Shown: piece by piece, positions 263 to 8,401 of the stretch | Layout of the letters: each line of letters begins with the position of its first letter | How positions within the stretch are numbered: the first letter of the stretch is position 1 | Assembly: GCA_020432045.1 (NCBI GenBank) | Contig: JAGQHB010000027.1 | Coordinates: 1-64,000 of the forward strand | Direction of reading: 5' to 3' | Length of the DNA: 64,000 bases | Source: Dehalococcoidia bacterium | Lineage (GTDB): Bacteria > Chloroflexota > Dehalococcoidia > Tepidiformales > Tepidiformaceae | Translations under genes and position numbers: made by a program | Notes under the pieces: model-generated | Databases searched by the model: none | Seen by the model: the letters and a program-made list of their open reading frames with translations, nothing else | Told to the model about the DNA's origin: nothing

Positions 263-2935
263 CTATGGCCCCTGGCGCGTCGTCCAGTTCGTCTGCACCG
301 TGACCGCGATCCAGTACGCGCCGCCCCGTACCAGTACGGCCAGATTGTTCGCACCCGGAACACCGACCCCCGATGGGAAGTACCCGAGCCAGCACGCGCC
401 GCTCCCGGTGCAACCGGCGCCGTTCGCAGACCAGGCGAAGACCGCCGTTGTCGCAGCCGTCACGTTGTTGGTCGCCGGGAGGTCCGTCGGTGTCTCGATT
501 CCGCGCAGCGCGTCCCCAACACCGATGTTGTCCTTCCCGTCCCATGTGATCAGCGTGAACCGGACGTACAGGTTGTACGTCACCGTCAGCGTCGAACCCG
601 ACGGCGTCCCATAGGTGAAGTCGTTCCCCGAACCCACGATCGAGCTGGTCCCTGCGCCTGTCGTCACCGTCACGTCGACCGTCCCCGTCGTCGTTCGCAG
701 AGGCGCGACCGCCTTGATCGTCGTGCTGGTCAGCACCTGCACGCTCGTCGCAGGCTCGGTGCCGAACTTCACCGTCGCGCCCTGGGCGAAGTTCACGCCT
801 GTGATGGTGACTTCGACGCCTGACGTATTGATCGCCGTGCCTGAAGGTGAAAGTGCCGTCACCGCTGGTGCTCCGCCCGATCCCGTGAAGATGTACTGCG
901 TCTGCGTCCCGGCAACGCTCGTGCCTGCCGGGTTGGTTACGAACACATCGACCGTCCCCGCTGCCGCGGTACTCGGCGTCGCCACCGTGATCTCGGTCCC
1001 GTCGCCGTTCACGGTGAACACACCCTCGAGCGTGCCGAATTTCACGGCAGATGTCGCCGTGAAGTGCAGCCCGGTGATCTTCACGATCGTTGTCTGGCCC
1101 GCCACCGACGTGTTCGGCGTCAACGACGTGATGACCGGCAGGTCCGCGTACGTGTAGTCGTCCCCGTCGGTGTCCGGGTTGGAAACGCTGTTCACAGTCA
1201 CTCTGATGGAGATGGTCCCGGCGGGCCGCGCCGGCGCCACGACGGTCAACTGCGTGTTGCTCGTCACCGTCACCACGGTCCCCGGCGTCGCTCCGAAGAG
1301 GACCGTCACCGTCGCGCCGCCCGCCGGCGCGAACCCGGACCCGGTGATCGTCACCGTGTTCCCGCCCGCTGTCGGCCCTTTCACGGGACTTACGCTAGTC
1401 ACCTCGACACCGGCCGTGTACGTGAAGTCGTCCTTGGTCGCATCGGCCGGTTCTGGCGCGACCACGCTCCCCGATTGCACGGAGACATCGACCTTGCCCG
1501 CACCGTGCGGCGGCGCCGTCGCCTGCAGCGATGTGTCCGTGACGTTTGTAACGGTGGTTGCCGTCGCCGTCCCGAACTTCACGGTCGGCGTCCCCCGGAA
1601 CCCGCTTCCCGTGACCGTCACGACCGTCCCCGGCGGTCCCGCCACCGGCGAAACACTCGCAAGTGTGACGCCCACATAGGTGAAGTTGTCGTCACTTGTG
1701 TTTTGGCTGACGTTGACCCCCGTCGTCACGATGACATCGACCACGTGTGGTCGGGCCAACGAGGCTGGCGTCGGTGCGATCACGGTGAGCGTCGTTGCGG
1801 TGAAGCTCTGGACGGGGGCAGTGACCGCGTTAAACGCTACCGTTGAAGATGCGGTGAATCCCGTGCCAGTGATCACGACAACGGTTCCTTCGGGTCCGCT
1901 TGCCGGGCTTAGTGATGAAACCGTCAACGCTGCGTATGTGAAAGTTGGCCCGACTGTCGACGTGAAGCCGTTTGCCGTGACCGTGACGTTCACCGTGTGC
2001 GGCCGATCCGTGGTCACGGGCGTCGGGGCGGTCGCGGTAATCCTCGTCGGGCTCTGGATCGTGAATCCAACGGCATCGACCGTGCCAAACGTTACTTTTG
2101 TGGCGCCAGTGAATCCCGTGCCTAGGATCGTTACTGTCTCGCCCACCGGCCCACTCGAGGGCGTCACGCTCGAAACCGTTGGCGCACCTGGCGTCACATA
2201 CAGGTAGTCGTTCGCTGTTGCAGGCGTTGCCGTGCTCGCCCCATTCGCCGGATGCGTCACGACGATATCAACGGTCCCCGTGGCGTGAGCCGGTGCGGTC
2301 GCCGTCATGCTCGTGTCCCCCGACTTGGTACACGCGGTGGCTGGCGTCCCGCCGAACGTCACTGCTGTTCCCGGCGACGTGCAGTCCACCCCGGTGAACC
2401 CGCTGCCGTTAATCGTTACGACCGTCCCGCCCAGCGTCGTCCCGCTCGTCGGTGTGATGGACGTGATGTTCGGCGGCAGCGACTCATCATCGAGAATCGT
2501 CACCAATGCACTGTCTTGCGCGCCGATCACGCCGTCCTGACCGACGGACGTGATCGTCAATGTGAATGTCCGGTCGATGTTGGTGCCCGGCTCGTCAAGA
2601 ATGCTCACGGGCACCGTCAGCAGTGTTTCGCCCGCGCCGATTGTCGGCGCTATCGGGTTCGACGCCAGGGAATAGTTCGTCCCAAGGATCGCCGTGCCGT
2701 TCGTCGCCGTAATTACGATTGTGTGGGCGTCCGGGCCGCCTGGGCCGGCATTCGTCCTGGCGATCCTGATGTCGTGCGCCTTTCCGGCGCCTTCCAGCAC
2801 GTTATACGTCGCAGCGGTGAACGCGAACGAATCCCCCGAATGCGCCTCCACCTCCCCCACCCGCTGCGATCCCATCGCTACAATCAGAACCAGCGCCAGG
2901 GCAAACGCCAACCGGTACGGCGATATCCGTGTCAT
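263..2935 (-). CDS. Secreted protein with Calx-beta-like and seven IPT/TIG domains
   Basis: This 890-residue protein begins with a signal peptide (hydrophobic residues about 8-22, likely cleaved after VEA near residue 31). A Calx-beta-like domain follows at about 33-150. Seven IPT/TIG immunoglobulin-like repeats then run from about 153 to 770, each opening with a variant of 'V-x-S-x-S/T-P-x-x-G' and carrying 'ITGTGF' and 'V-x-F-G'. The last 120 residues are a separate unassigned domain containing a Cys pair (GCTGSGACW). No sortase motif or anchor helix is visible. TIG repeats usually form rod-like extracellular adhesion or scaffold structures; the ligand is unknown. The gene diverges from the sulfurtransferase at 3083 and ends against the 102-bp repeats. 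Confidence 0.85.
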   Translation of the reverse strand: MTRISPYRLAFALALVLIVAMGSQRVGEVEAHSGDSFAFTAATYNVLEGAGKAHDIRIARTNAGPGGPDAHTIVITATNGTAILGTNYSLASNPIAPTIGAGETLLTVPVSILDEPGTNIDRTFTLTITSVGQDGVIGAQDSALVTILDDESLPPNITSITPTSGTTLGGTVVTINGSGFTGVDCTSPGTAVTFGGTPATACTKSGDTSMTATAPAHATGTVDIVVTHPANGASTATPATANDYLYVTPGAPTVSSVTPSSGPVGETVTILGTGFTGATKVTFGTVDAVGFTIQSPTRITATAPTPVTTDRPHTVNVTVTANGFTSTVGPTFTYAALTVSSLSPASGPEGTVVVITGTGFTASSTVAFNAVTAPVQSFTATTLTVIAPTPASLARPHVVDVIVTTGVNVSQNTSDDNFTYVGVTLASVSPVAGPPGTVVTVTGSGFRGTPTVKFGTATATTVTNVTDTSLQATAPPHGAGKVDVSVQSGSVVAPEPADATKDDFTYTAGVEVTSVSPVKGPTAGGNTVTITGSGFAPAGGATVTVLFGATPGTVVTVTSNTQLTVVAPARPAGTISIRVTVNSVSNPDTDGDDYTYADLPVITSLTPNTSVAGQTTIVKITGLHFTATSAVKFGTLEGVFTVNGDGTEITVATPSTAAAGTVDVFVTNPAGTSVAGTQTQYIFTGSGGAPAVTALSPSGTAINTSGVEVTITGVNFAQGATVKFGTEPATSVQVLTSTTIKAVAPLRTTTGTVDVTVTTGAGTSSIVGSGNDFTYGTPSGSTLTVTYNLYVRFTLITWDGKDNIGVGDALRGIETPTDLPATNNVTAATTAVFAWSANGAGCTGSGACWLGYFPSGVGVPGANNLAVLVRGGAYWIAVTVQTNWTTRQGP

Positions 2936-3955: not shown

Positions 3956-4047
3956 CCGCGCTGCCCACCTGCGGAACCCGGGCCCTGCTGCCGTCTATTA
4001 CCCCATAGCGTGTCACCGCGCCGTTCGCGCGGGGGAGGGGATTTCAG

Positions 4048-5448
4048 ATGGCAGTACCCGTCAGGGCGCCCGGTTCAGCCGGCGGCCCTCCTGGGCGGCT
4101 GATCGAGTGGTACCGGCCTGATGGCGCCGACCTCCACGAGGGCGACCCCGTCGCCTGCGTCGAGTGCGACGATATCGTCTTCGATCTCGATGCAGAGTCG
4201 GATGGCGTCCTCCACCACCGTGCCGTTCCCGGTGATGCTCCCTTGCCCTCTAACGTCGTGGCGTTCATCGCCGCTCACGGCGAGGCGCCCCCTCTTGTGG
4301 CCGAACCGGACCCGGAACCCCCGGAGGTCACTCCTCCTCCGGCTGCGTTTGCTCCCCTCGAGGATCACGTGCCCGGCGCCCCGATCCCGTTGCGTCGTGG
4401 CGCTCTCGGTGCTCCCAAGGAGTTCACTCGTGGCGGGGCGTGGGATCGCGTCTTCGGGTCGTCGGACGATGGCCACATCGACGACCTCTGGCCGAACACC
4501 GATGCTGAGCACGTCCACCTTCACCCGGCCCGGGAGCACGACACCGCGGACCCAGGCCGGGTGGATTCGGCGCTCGATGCCGGGCAACAACCCCTCGAAA
4601 GCATCTCCGGTAGTACCCCTCCGCAGACCGGGGACGACACCATGCAACCGGTCGAAGAGTTCGCCTACTTCGACTCCGCCGCTGCCGGAGTCCAGGGCGA
4701 TCCCGTCGTCGACGCTCCAGCCGATACTGCGCCTCCAGTCACGGCGCCCGGCATCGAAGTCGCCCCGGCTGAGGTGTTTGGCTCTCACTACTGGCCCCAC
4801 GGGACCGTCGACGACGAGTCCATGCCCCTCGATACCGCCGGCTTCGAAGGGCCTGCGCCCTGGGGCGACCCCGCATCCGTTTACATCGCGCCTCCTCCAC
4901 TCGTCCTTCGCGGGACGATCAAGATGACCGAGGCACGTAAGCTCTGCGACCAGCTTGGTCGCGAGTGGCGCGAAGCGCCCGCACGCCCGGAAAACGAGGA
5001 CCTCGTCCTCCGCGCGATCGCCCGTGCAGCAGCCGAACGTGAATTGGCCGGGGACGACGGCGGAATCGCCGGCCTCGTCATTCCCCTCGCTGGCGGCGAT
5101 CGTATCGCCATCCTCCGCGGAGCCGCGCGAGGCTCGTTCAAAGAACAGGTCGCCCGCCTCGACCAGTCTTCTCGCGACGCTACCTACGCGGACTGCGAGG
5201 TCACCCTTGTCTCGTTCCGCCACTTTGGCATCGAGGAAGCCACGCCGTTCCTCCCGGAGGGCCACAGCGTTGCGTTCGCCATGGGCGCCCTTCGGCCGGG
5301 TACGAATCCCGAGGGTGATGTGCCGTTGCCCGTCATGGTCCTCACCATGGTGTACAACCCCGACGCCCTCTCGATGGGTGACGCCGCGCTGCTGTTCGCC
5401 CGTACAGGCGAACTCATTGAGGCACCGTACGCCCTCCTCGCCGACTAG
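4048..5448 (+). CDS. Degenerate 2-oxoacid dehydrogenase E2-like protein
   Basis: The 466-residue product has the E2 layout: an N-terminal lipoyl/biotinyl-like domain (about 15-76), a long Pro/Asp-rich linker (about 80-285) and a C-terminal domain (about 288-466) resembling the E2 acyltransferase core. In the lipoyl-like domain the usual ETDKA turn reads ECDDI (39-43), so the acceptor lysine is replaced by Asp42. In the C-terminal domain, segments equivalent to 'TxSNxGxFGI' (385-395) and 'PPQxAIxAxG' (403-413) are clear, but the catalytic HxxxDG motif reads YNPDALSMGD (436-445) with no His or DG pair. A GGGGGAGGGG ribosome site precedes the ATG. lipB follows 15 bases downstream, which suggests a role near lipoylation, perhaps as scaffold or regulator. 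Homology is read by eye; function is inferred. Confidence 0.72.
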   Translation: MAVPVRAPGSAGGPPGRLIEWYRPDGADLHEGDPVACVECDDIVFDLDAESDGVLHHRAVPGDAPLPSNVVAFIAAHGEAPPLVAEPDPEPPEVTPPPAAFAPLEDHVPGAPIPLRRGALGAPKEFTRGGAWDRVFGSSDDGHIDDLWPNTDAEHVHLHPAREHDTADPGRVDSALDAGQQPLESISGSTPPQTGDDTMQPVEEFAYFDSAAAGVQGDPVVDAPADTAPPVTAPGIEVAPAEVFGSHYWPHGTVDDESMPLDTAGFEGPAPWGDPASVYIAPPPLVLRGTIKMTEARKLCDQLGREWREAPARPENEDLVLRAIARAAAERELAGDDGGIAGLVIPLAGGDRIAILRGAARGSFKEQVARLDQSSRDATYADCEVTLVSFRHFGIEEATPFLPEGHSVAFAMGALRPGTNPEGDVPLPVMVLTMVYNPDALSMGDAALLFARTGELIEAPYALLAD

Positions 5449-5463: not shown

Positions 5464-6153
5464 ATGAACGAACGAAACCTCCGTGTATACCAGCTCGGCA
5501 CGACCACCTACGAAGACGTCCACCGGCTGCAACAGCGGCTCCAGGAACAGCGTCGCCAGGGAGCCGGTGAGGACGCTCTGCTCCTCACCGAGCACCGCGC
5601 CGTCATTACCCTCGGCCGTGCCCATCCGGAGCCGTCACTTCGCGTCCCCTCGGAAGAAGTGGCTGCCCGCGGCGTCAGCATCGTGCAATCCGAACGTGGC
5701 GGTGATGTCACCTACCACGGCCCCGGCCAACTCGTCGCCTACGGCATCATCGACCTGCGCGCCTGGGATCTCGGCGTCGTCGACTACGTCACCGGCCTCG
5801 AAGAGACCGTCATCGGCCTCCTCGCCGACTGGGGACTGCGCGGCGAACGCGTGAAGGGCTCACGCGGCGTCTGGATTGCGGGCCGTAAAGTCGCATCTGT
5901 GGGTGTCCACGTCCGCGGCGGCGTCACGATGCACGGCATCGCCGTCAACGTATCGGACGACCTCAGCGGATTCGACCTGATCAACCCCTGCGGCATGCCC
6001 TCCGTCGAAATGACCAGTCTCAGCCGCGAGATGGGGAAGCCCGTCGCCGTCGCTGCCGCCGCCGAAGCGTTCATCTTCCATGCCGCCAGTGTCCTTTCCT
6101 GCACCATCGAAGCCGTCGATATGGAGCAGAAACGGGCTGCCGCTCTGGGTTAG
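5464..6153 (+). CDS. lipB: Octanoyl-[ACP]:protein N-octanoyltransferase LipB
   Basis: LipB moves octanoyl groups from acyl carrier protein onto the lipoyl-domain lysine of 2-oxoacid dehydrogenases or GcvH, the first step of de novo lipoate assembly. The 229-residue product has the family motif RGGDVTYHGPGQL (78-90), the catalytic lysine in GRKVASVG (Lys142) and the acyl-thioester cysteine in INPCGMP (Cys176). Length is normal. It starts 15 bases after the E2-like gene, with GGAG in the gap, so the two are probably co-transcribed. Its usual partner lipA is not in this window. Confidence 0.95.
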   Translation: MNERNLRVYQLGTTTYEDVHRLQQRLQEQRRQGAGEDALLLTEHRAVITLGRAHPEPSLRVPSEEVAARGVSIVQSERGGDVTYHGPGQLVAYGIIDLRAWDLGVVDYVTGLEETVIGLLADWGLRGERVKGSRGVWIAGRKVASVGVHVRGGVTMHGIAVNVSDDLSGFDLINPCGMPSVEMTSLSREMGKPVAVAAAAEAFIFHAASVLSCTIEAVDMEQKRAAALG

Positions 6154-6173: not shown

Positions 6174-6200
6174 GGTGGCCCGGCCCGGCTGGGACGCACC

Positions 6201-6887
6201 ATGGCCTACACCCTCGAACAACTCGGAGAGCGCTACGGCGCCTGGTGGATCGACGCCCTCGGCGAACATAACCACATCGGCGGCCTCGATAGCACCCGTT
6301 GGCTGCTCGATCGCGCCGGGCTCAGGCCCGGTGATCGCATGCTCGATAGTGGCGCCTTCGTCGGCGCTGCCGCCCGCCATGCCGCGACCAGCATCCCTGG
6401 CCTTCGCGTTGTCGCCACGGACATGAACCCGGAATTCCTCCAGGCCGGCCGTGAAATGGAGGGCGGGCATGCCGTCGACTGGGTCACTGCTGCCACCGAA
6501 CGTCTCCCCTTCGCGTCGGCCTCATTTCAAAGTGTCTGGGCCCTCGACACGGCGATGCCGCCCCGCGAGCTTGCCCGCGTCGCCGCTCCCCGCGCTACCC
6601 TCTGTCTCTGCTGCGAAGCCCCCAATGACAATCGGGGCGGTGCCGAGGCCTTCTTCGAAGAATGGGAAGAGTACGGCTGGCGGCTGTCCGCGCATCGTGC
6701 CCTCAGCCTCGAAGCCACTAACACCTGGCGCAAAGCCGAGGCCGACGTTGTCTGGCGTCACACCTTCTATGAAGAACGCTACGGGAAGCGTGGTTATGGC
6801 GGCCAGCTCGACCTCCTTACCAGCCTCGTGCAGATGTATGAGCGCGGCGAAGCCGGCCACGGCCTCTACGTCTTCAGCCGCGGCTAG
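6201..6887 (+). CDS. SAM-dependent class I methyltransferase
   Basis: The 228-residue product has a Rossmann-like SAM-binding fold. Motif I reads MLDSGAFVGAAAR (about 47-59), a variant of the usual DxGxGxG; VVATDMNPEFL supplies the acidic residue that binds the SAM ribose, and LPFASASFQSVWALD is the motif II/III region of the Methyltransf_11 type. The C-terminal third is less conserved and presumably shapes the substrate site. The substrate is unknown. The gene converges on and overlaps by 14 bases the glycosyltransferase at 6874-7824. Confidence 0.78.
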   Translation: MAYTLEQLGERYGAWWIDALGEHNHIGGLDSTRWLLDRAGLRPGDRMLDSGAFVGAAARHAATSIPGLRVVATDMNPEFLQAGREMEGGHAVDWVTAATERLPFASASFQSVWALDTAMPPRELARVAAPRATLCLCCEAPNDNRGGAEAFFEEWEEYGWRLSAHRALSLEATNTWRKAEADVVWRHTFYEERYGKRGYGGQLDLLTSLVQMYERGEAGHGLYVFSRG

Positions 6888-7824
6888 CGTGCCGCGTCAG
6901 CACCTCGCGTAGCCTCCGGTCGATCGTGTCAGCCGCCGGCCCCGGCGCGTGCGACTCCGCCACCCAGCGCATCCCCGCTTCGTTCAGGCCGAGGTGGCCC
7001 TGGGCATGTGCATCGCGCAGCCTGGTGATCGCTTCCTTCACCGCCTCATAGTCCTGCGCTTGCACGACCCCCGGGAGCTCGTAGGAGTACACGGCGTGCC
7101 GCCCGCGTGATAGCGCCTCCAGGACCATGAACGGCATTCCATCGTGCGCCACCAGTCGCGCCAGCACGGTTGTTTCCCGGTACAGCGCGTCCATGTCCGT
7201 CACCCATCCCAGCGTTTCCAGGTTCGATGGCAAGGGCGCGGGGAGGCTTTCTGCTGGTGACGGGATCAACACGAACGCCACGTCGGGGAGTTCCCGCGGC
7301 AGCCGCAACATCGTCTCCATGTCGAATACTTCGCGGTCGAAGGCATCGACCGGCAGGTAAAAGAGCACGCGGAATGACGCCGGTAACGGCGGCGCCCCGG
7401 ATGCGATTCCGGGTACTGGGAGCGGCACAACCTCACTTCGGATCCCCATCTCCCGCAGCTCATCTACCAGCCACGGCGCGTCCGCCCAATGCAGCGCGCT
7501 GCCCGCGACGATTTCTGACAGCGCTCCCTTCCGGTATGCCTCACGCGCGATCAGCACGTCGGTTCCAACCCAGTGCACCACCGCCGGCACGCGCCACCAT
7601 CTCAGCAGCCGGTCGAGTGGCGACCCCCGCTCCCCCCGTGCACTCACCAGGTAGAGCACATCCGCCCTCGCCACTGCGGCGACCACGTCCAGCCACGCCC
7701 GCGGTGAGCGCCCTGGATGCGCAAGGAACCGTGCCTCCCAGCCGCGCTGCGCCAGCACCTCGGAAAGCATCGACCCGAAGTACGGCAATCCCAGGATCAG
7801 GACGCGCGGCCGGGCTTCAGTCAC
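6874..7824 (-). CDS. Glycosyltransferase, GT4-like
   Basis: The 316-residue product has the two-Rossmann layout of GT-B glycosyltransferases. The N-terminal half (VLILGLPYFGSMLSEVLAQRG) is the acceptor-side domain. The C-terminal half has the donor-domain pattern around LETLGWVTDMDALYRETTVLARL and HDGMPFMVLEALSRGRHAVYSY, where Glu in 'VLEALSRG' corresponds to the conserved E of the E-x7-E motif. It overlaps the end of the upstream acyltransferase gene by 8 bases and is probably translated with it. It likely adds a sugar to a surface polysaccharide or glycolipid; donor and acceptor are unknown. Confidence 0.75.
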   Translation of the reverse strand: MTEARPRVLILGLPYFGSMLSEVLAQRGWEARFLAHPGRSPRAWLDVVAAVARADVLYLVSARGERGSPLDRLLRWWRVPAVVHWVGTDVLIAREAYRKGALSEIVAGSALHWADAPWLVDELREMGIRSEVVPLPVPGIASGAPPLPASFRVLFYLPVDAFDREVFDMETMLRLPRELPDVAFVLIPSPAESLPAPLPSNLETLGWVTDMDALYRETTVLARLVAHDGMPFMVLEALSRGRHAVYSYELPGVVQAQDYEAVKEAITRLRDAHAQGHLGLNEAGMRWVAESHAPGPAADTIDRRLREVLTRHASRG

Positions 7825-8401
7825 GAGTGTCCAACACGGCCGCTCTCGGGCTCACCACCGTCTCCCCAGCGGCCACATCCTTTGCCACCAGCCCGTGCGC
7901 CCCCACGACCGCCGCCGCCCCAACCGTGACCCCATGAAGCAGCGTCGCCCCTGTGCCCAGGTAGGCGCCCGCTCCGATCCGGACCGGCGCCTGTTCGCGG
8001 CGCAGTCGTCCGCGCAGCGGTCCTGGGCCCACGTCAATATGCGTAATCAGCGTGCAGCGCATCGAAATGGTGGCCTCATCTTCGATCACCACGTGGTCCG
8101 CCAGGTCGATCAGCACATCCGCGCCCAGGTGCACACGGTCGCCAATCACCAGGTTCGAAAAGTCGCCGTCCGCGTTCACAACGTGCAGGGGCGTATAGAT
8201 GGAGCAATCGCTTCCGACCTGCGCCCCATACTCCCGCAGGATCTGGACGTGCTCGTTCGTCGTCGTCCGTAACTCCATCGCGATGCCCTCAATCCCGTAA
8301 CGGACGTAGCGCATCTTTCGCCGGGACCGCCCAAGCCAGGAGGTCCGCCTCAATACGGGCCTCGCAACCGGCGCCAGCATCGCTCTGCCTCGTTTTAACA
8401 T
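7817..8401 (-). CDS. Left-handed beta-helix acyltransferase
   Basis: The 194-residue product has hexapeptide-repeat sequence typical of O-acetyltransferases of the WbbJ/CysE/NodL group: turns such as CSIYTPLHV, LVIGDRVHLGADV, HVVIEDEATIS and VRIGAGAYLGTGATLLHGVTVGAAAVVGAH. Such trimeric enzymes usually move an acetyl group from acetyl-CoA to a sugar hydroxyl or amine. ATG 8401 was preferred to a further upstream in-frame start at 8524, because the first 41 residues of the longer form look unlike the family and overlap the promoter region of the divergent gene. The gene is coupled to the following glycosyltransferase by an 8-base overlap. Confidence 0.75.
   Translation of the reverse strand: MLKRGRAMLAPVARPVLRRTSWLGRSRRKMRYVRYGIEGIAMELRTTTNEHVQILREYGAQVGSDCSIYTPLHVVNADGDFSNLVIGDRVHLGADVLIDLADHVVIEDEATISMRCTLITHIDVGPGPLRGRLRREQAPVRIGAGAYLGTGATLLHGVTVGAAAVVGAHGLVAKDVAAGETVVSPRAAVLDTRD

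Follow-up and report, generated by a model that had tools for sequence, protein, structure and literature searches.

An E2-like protein without the lipoyl lysine or the catalytic histidine is encoded beside lipB in the Tepidiformaceae

The pseudo-E2 gene and its neighbors

The window analyzed here is a stretch of 64,000 nucleotides from the Tepidiformaceae, a family of Chloroflexota (class Dehalococcoidia) that comprises bacteria from hot springs and their relatives. Immediately before lipB, which encodes the octanoyltransferase that begins lipoylation, it carries a gene for a protein that resembles the E2 subunit of 2-oxoacid dehydrogenase complexes (the pseudo-E2). The features of the locus are as follows.

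4034 to 4040, + strand: ribosome-binding site GGAGGGG, 7 nt before the ATG (7-13 nt upstream span), read from the sequence
4048 to 5448, + strand: pseudo-E2 gene, 466 aa, ATG start, TAG stop (open reading frame, orthologues)
4048 to 4293, + strand: lipoyl-like domain, residues 1-82 (Pfam in 17/18 orthologues, fold Z about 10)
4162 to 4176, + strand: hairpin ECDDI, residues 39-43, in which codon 42 (4171-4173) places Asp at the lipoyl lysine position (alignment)
4294 to 4884, + strand: disordered Pro/Ala/acidic linker, residues 83-279, without a peripheral-subunit-binding domain (pLDDT, PF02817 absent)
4384 to 4461, + strand: linker linear motif IPLRR...AWDRVFGS, residues 113-138, family form [VIL]P[FL].RR ... 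W..xPGD (conserved)
4885 to 5445, + strand: E2-core-like domain, residues 280-466 (Z 24, rmsd 2.1 A, 184 residues)
5356 to 5376, + strand: lost catalytic segment, residues 437-443, NPDALSM for DHRxxDG, with Pro438 at the catalytic His (alignment)
5419 to 5445, + strand: C-terminal EAPYALLAD, residues 458-466, counterpart of the intertrimer knob of E2s (strongly conserved)
5464 to 6153, + strand: lipB, octanoyltransferase, 229 aa, with the RGG loop, Lys and Cys of active LipB (NCBIfam, sequence)

The original prediction, made from the letters of the window, described an intact gene with a good ribosome site 15 bases before lipB, and the 466-codon frame, the GGAGGGG and the 15-nt spacing between the pseudo-E2 stop and the lipB ATG at 5464 agree with it. 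A scan for sigma-70-type promoters found none, and the sigma-70-type model is uninformative in this phylum. The product of lipB matches NCBIfam PRK14345 (E 5.3e-54, above the curated cut-off) and carries the motifs RGG, RKVASVG and NPCGM; the roles of the LipB active-site residues have been described (PMC9307952). Elsewhere in the window, positions 263-2935 (- strand) encode an 890-aa secreted-type protein with Calx-beta and seven IPT/TIG domains.

Two E2 folds with both functional sites lost

The N-terminal domain of the window protein gave only a sub-threshold match to Pfam Biotin_lipoyl as a single sequence (residues 18-61, E 0.035), and the same family was found in 17/18 orthologues (best 1.4e-7). 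In an AlphaFold2 model built on an 18-sequence alignment, residues 1-80 are confidently placed (pLDDT about 93), and the domain modeled alone matches the lipoyl/biotinyl fold with Z about 10 over 69-84 residues. The domain thus has the lipoyl/biotinyl fold, a flattened beta-barrel. The core, residues 280-466, is modeled with similar confidence (pLDDT about 90) and superposes on E2 cores with Z 20-24 at 2.0-2.7 A over about 180-186 residues, the best match reaching Z 24, 2.1 A and 184 residues; the lack of a structural match here had been named as an outcome that would count against the prediction. Pfam 2-oxoacid_dh is matched by 9/18 orthologues. At the level of the whole protein, the profile of 18 orthologues aligns over almost its full length with human PDHX/E3BP (E 1.3e-24), and E2 chains also match. 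The proposed E2 plan of lipoyl-like domain, linker and acyltransferase-like core thus stands on a profile match and on two confident domains with matching folds; chance resemblance to E2 is excluded by the same profile and fold matches.

In an alignment of 19 pseudo-E2s and 29 genuine E2s from the same class, the acceptor lysine is present in 29/29 genuine E2s and 0/19 pseudo-E2s. Its position holds Phe in 11/19 pseudo-E2s, with Asp, His, Ala or Asn among the others; the window protein has Asp42. Around the lost lysine, Glu39 (lysine -3), Gly26 (-16) and Gly53 (+11) are kept in 19/19, and Trp21, Gly32, Ala49, Gly78 and Glu79 are also kept. Older mutagenesis work identified Gly-16, Glu-3 and Gly+11 as recognition determinants of lipoylation, although these residues may be kept for the fold alone. 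In the core, the catalytic His of all 29 genuine E2s is replaced by Pro (12) or Ser (7) in the 19 pseudo-E2s, its partner Asp in HxxxDG gives way to S, P, G and others, and the DEGLxxPV and INPPxAILG loops are likewise missing. Ala323, Ala327, Gly405 and Pro460 are kept, as is the C-terminal EAPYALL (P460 19/19, E458 17/19, L463 17/19), which corresponds to the helix, or knob, that plugs the neighboring trimer in E2 shells (PMC9681731). The two genuine E2s of the window genome carry ETEKI/ETDKA and DHRAVDG/DHRVTDG. Both losses claimed for the window protein, Asp42 at the lysine in ECDDI and Pro438 at the catalytic His, were therefore confirmed by the alignment, and no orthologue that keeps the lysine and HxxxDG was found, both sites being lost in 19/19.

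The linker is disordered, with pLDDT under 50 over most of its length in the AlphaFold2 model. The peripheral-subunit-binding domain PF02817 was found in 0/18 pseudo-E2s at E <= 0.1, whereas genuine E2s from the same genomes carry one or two such domains; in genome G000, PF02817 is present only at C57 and C1. The pseudo-E2 linkers have motifs of their own: a basic motif, [VIL]P[FL].RR, in 13/18 (shuffle mean 0.10), W..PGD, often after it, in 8/18 (shuffle mean 0.05), and GxxPGLPLW in 6/18, from Tepidiforma and one other genus.

Distribution, linkage to lipB and origin

Pseudo-E2 orthologues occur in 23/38 Tepidiformaceae genomes, spanning 13 genera and including Tepidiforma flava (NZ_CP115149.1, locus L046); Tepidiforma sp. 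KatS3mg064 (L047) is also among the relatives. Fourteen family genomes, of genera g7, g9, g11, g12 and g15, have lipB without a pseudo-E2; in g12, thyX (annotated by eye) precedes lipB, and in the other four genera different genes stand there. One further assembly (G007) yielded neither gene. Across 393 genomes from the class and 400 from the phylum, core-profile searches gave scores at the pseudo-E2 level (E <= 1e-40) in the window's family only, and a pattern scan of genome contigs with the single window protein gave no match. The matches outside the family that were inspected are genuine E2s with HxxxDG, with one exception. That exception, at 6400-7611 (- strand) of locus L150 (= L146; G269:C1), is an independent dead E2 from another family (f21) of the class that has lost the lysine (VATAQG) and HxxxDG and retains a subunit-binding domain, a plan closer to E3BP; its neighbors, by eye, are an LLM-type oxidoreductase, a hydrolase and an acyl-CoA carboxylase, not lipB. 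A pseudo-E2-lipB pair in PQAJ01000177.1 (L057), labeled 'Holophagae bacterium FeB_10', groups with the window's family (E 2.7e-128) and probably comes from a misnamed metagenome bin. The original prediction of a kept pseudo-E2 beside lipB is strongly supported. It described one odd gene; the clade spans a family, has its own linker motifs and lacks the peripheral-subunit-binding domain.

In every carrier checked (22 family genomes and the window itself), the pseudo-E2 immediately precedes lipB and shares its strand; the gap measured at 19 loci is about -4 to 76 nt and varies with the lipB start that is chosen. This short or overlapping spacing suggests that the two genes are translationally coupled. 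The other window neighbors rarely recur at 20 loci (rhodanese 0, methyltransferase 3, glycosyltransferase 2), so that the conservation of the pair goes far past that of the genes around it. Among these neighbors, the methyltransferase-like gene after lipB (6201-6887, + strand) is found near lipB in L036, L040 and L042, an apparent homologue lies near lipB in L097, which has no pseudo-E2, and the gene may be a looser member of the neighborhood. Each carrier has a single LplA/LipB-family protein, except for one incomplete genome (G009) with a second fragment, and LipB is thus the sole means of octanoylating proteins found in the carrier genomes; lipA is located elsewhere.

Where did the gene come from? 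In a tree with 29 genuine E2s, the pseudo-E2s form a single clade apart from all of them (support 100/100), joining between the family's AcoX-type E2a and the remaining E2s. E2a is closest to the pseudo-E2, with mean identities of 43% (lipoyl) and 26% (core), and in the window genome it lies within E1a-E1b-AcoX-E2a-E3. With the names E1a, E3 and AcoX read by eye from sequence at these loci, the family's sister on the LipB tree has the order AcoX-E2-E3-lipB (L108), another genome (G170, L154) has E1-E1-AcoX-E2 upstream of lipB with a gap between, and a third family has E1a-E1b-E2-lipB (L107, L109). Because genuine E2s adjoin lipB in these other families of the class, the pseudo-E2 probably arose through duplication within an E2-lipB operon. 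The simplest history would be the duplication of an E2 in such an operon, inactivation of the copy on the lipB side and a few later gene losses; the LipB tree, weakly resolved inside the family, requires four presence changes.

Selection and candidate functions

Among four Tepidiforma species, dN/dS is 0.04-0.15 for the lipoyl-like domain, 0.08-0.21 for the core and 0.27-0.57 for the linker, and both folded domains are under purifying selection. A sequencing error or a decaying pseudogene is accordingly very improbable: by far the most copies, across 13 genera, are intact, dN/dS is well below 1 in both domains and the identical losses are found everywhere, although frameshifts do occur in two relatives. 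In L044 (G034, 6178-7285), a linker frameshift splits the pseudo-E2. In L048 (G029, about 6221 to 8068, reverse strand), a frameshift near the end runs the pseudo-E2 frame into lipB (621 codons), and this joint frame is either a sequencing error or a natural fusion. The shared losses, the E2 fold, purifying selection and a lipB linkage that is universal among carriers all uphold the view of a pseudo-E2 that is kept.

Across genera, the lipoyl-like domain (mean identity about 0.47) is better conserved than the core (about 0.35), whereas the two halves are equal in genuine E2a. Across 15 genomes, the lipoyl-like domain and LipB give correlated pairwise distances (r 0.71, partial 0.63 given LipA); in the 8 genomes with E2a, the values are 0.79 (partial 0.70) for the lipoyl-like domain and 0.38 (partial -0.10) for the lipoyl domain of E2a, the samples (8-15 genomes) being small and the permutation ignoring the tree. 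Core distances follow those of LipB more weakly (partial 0.52 and 0.37). These correlations are compatible with a lipoyl-like domain that contacts LipB, and we weight them lightly; neighboring genes have a common history and a common local mutation rate, and this can look like co-evolution.

In total, the computational evidence establishes that both E2 folds are retained, that the lysine and the catalytic His and Asp are erased, that the binding domain is absent and that the order with lipB is fixed; it shows a dead, folded E2 paralogue that is under selection and coupled to lipB. Based on these observations, we posit, with a probability of about 0.4, that the pseudo-E2 is a dead paralogue of an acetoin-type (AcoX-associated) E2, which arose by duplication beside lipB at the base of the family or close to it and has been retained by selection as a non-acceptor partner of LipB. 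The role in regulating or scaffolding lipoylation that was originally suggested from sequence is plausible, on the evidence of gene order and of the distance correlation between the lipoyl-like domain and LipB. In such a mechanism, the lipoyl-like domain would keep the shape of an acceptor and dock at the acceptor face of LipB without being open to octanoylation, and the E2-like core would form a trimer or larger shell, or join genuine E2 cores via the C-terminal knob. As an adaptor or a brake, the pseudo-E2 might then retain LipB, the single octanoyltransferase of the genome, set its position with respect to the genuine E2s that it serves, or throttle it. Against a LipB partner stand the 14 family genomes with lipB and no pseudo-E2, which imply that LipB does not need it in general, and the adjacency could be a relic of shared expression in ancestral E2-lipB operons. 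We speculate further, and only tentatively, that the protein is a bacterial lipoylation adaptor, a self-assembling E2-shaped scaffold whose unmodifiable lipoyl domain delivers LipB to, or withholds it from, genuine 2-oxoacid dehydrogenase cores.

The main rival, which we consider unlikely, is a structural subunit like E3BP, whose dead core co-assembles with E2a and alters geometry or stoichiometry, the adjacency to lipB reflecting operon descent. PDHX/E3BP is the best full-length profile match (E 1.3e-24), the E2-core fold and the knob are retained, and E2a, the nearest relative, is also present in most carriers; moreover, the longest pseudo-E2 branches (1.69 and 1.41) belong to the two genomes without an E2a-type match in the family search (G013 and G015), as would be expected if the constraint came from E2a. 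The pseudo-E2 nevertheless persists in those two genomes, its lipoyl-like domain is more conserved than its core and tracks LipB rather than E2a, and the absence of the peripheral-subunit-binding domain in 18/18 and of the lipoyl lysine makes E1/E3 recruitment and acyl transfer in the style of E3BP impossible. A simple identity with E3BP fails on the binding domain and the lysine. Could the lysine-less domain instead be a decoy that fills the acceptor site of LipB and keeps octanoylation low while genuine acceptors are in short supply? An acceptor-like hairpin with Glu-3 in 19/19, Phe in 11/19 at the lysine position, a hydrophobic residue that could enter the octanoyl pocket, and spacing suggestive of translational coupling with lipB would all suit an inhibitor, but other members, that of the window included, have Asp, His, Ala or Asn there, and no need for such a brake is known; we regard this as rather improbable. 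Less probable again is a different activity, with a new ligand for the core or a partner recruited by the linker motifs, and only an indirect link to lipoate metabolism. The active-site loops DEGLxxPV and INPPxAILG, remodeled so that other residues are now conserved there (Gly405 in 19/19), and the linker motifs [VIL]P[FL].RR (13/18) and W..PGD (8/18), far above shuffles, would fit, but no new domain match accompanies them and the linkage to lipB is left unexplained.

Several known systems resemble the pseudo-E2 in part. E3BP, or protein X (PDHX), of mitochondrial pyruvate dehydrogenase is likewise an E2 paralogue with the E2 domain order and a dead catalytic site, and it has a lipoylated domain; the pseudo-E2 core matches a PDHX-type structure (6h60) with Z 21.0 over 180 residues. 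PDHX is eukaryotic and has a peripheral-subunit-binding domain for E3 (PMC10156792). In contrast, the pseudo-E2 is bacterial, lacks the lipoylated and E3-binding domains and has its gene tied to lipB. Acetoin-type (AcoX-associated) E2s are the nearest genuine relatives and share one neighborhood with lipB in other families (L108; with a gap in L154), but genuine E2s retain the lysine, HxxxDG and the subunit-binding domain or domains, all of which the pseudo-E2 lacks. Actinobacterial OdhA/KGD, which has no lipoyl-like domain, contains an E2 core domain (Z 16-19 to the pseudo-E2) without the classical E2 role in its own chain. That domain forms a fusion with E1 and is active in catalysis (PMC10415282). 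In the sHdr pathway of sulfur oxidation, LbpA is, like the pseudo-E2, a protein of lipoyl fold whose gene is accompanied by its own genes for lipoate attachment; it carries lipoate (PMC6067878), whereas the pseudo-E2 domain has no lysine to carry it.

The original prediction knew of no described system of this form, and a search of openly accessible literature likewise found no description of a pseudo-E2, a lipoyl domain devoid of its lysine or a partner of LipB. To our knowledge, E3BP is the only well-known dead E2 paralogue, and it is eukaryotic and retains a lipoyl group and an E3-binding domain; the pseudo-E2 is a dead E2 paralogue to be filed apart from it. Kept across 13 genera and locked to lipB, the pseudo-E2 indicates that E2 folds can be retained for something beyond acyl transfer or the tethering of E1 and E3. 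Direct testing is feasible, given that Tepidiforma species grow in culture and that assays for lipoylation are well established. Should the pseudo-E2 act on LipB, we would know of no earlier partner or regulator of an octanoyltransferase, and the adaptor, if true, would represent protein-level control of cofactor attachment of a kind not described before.
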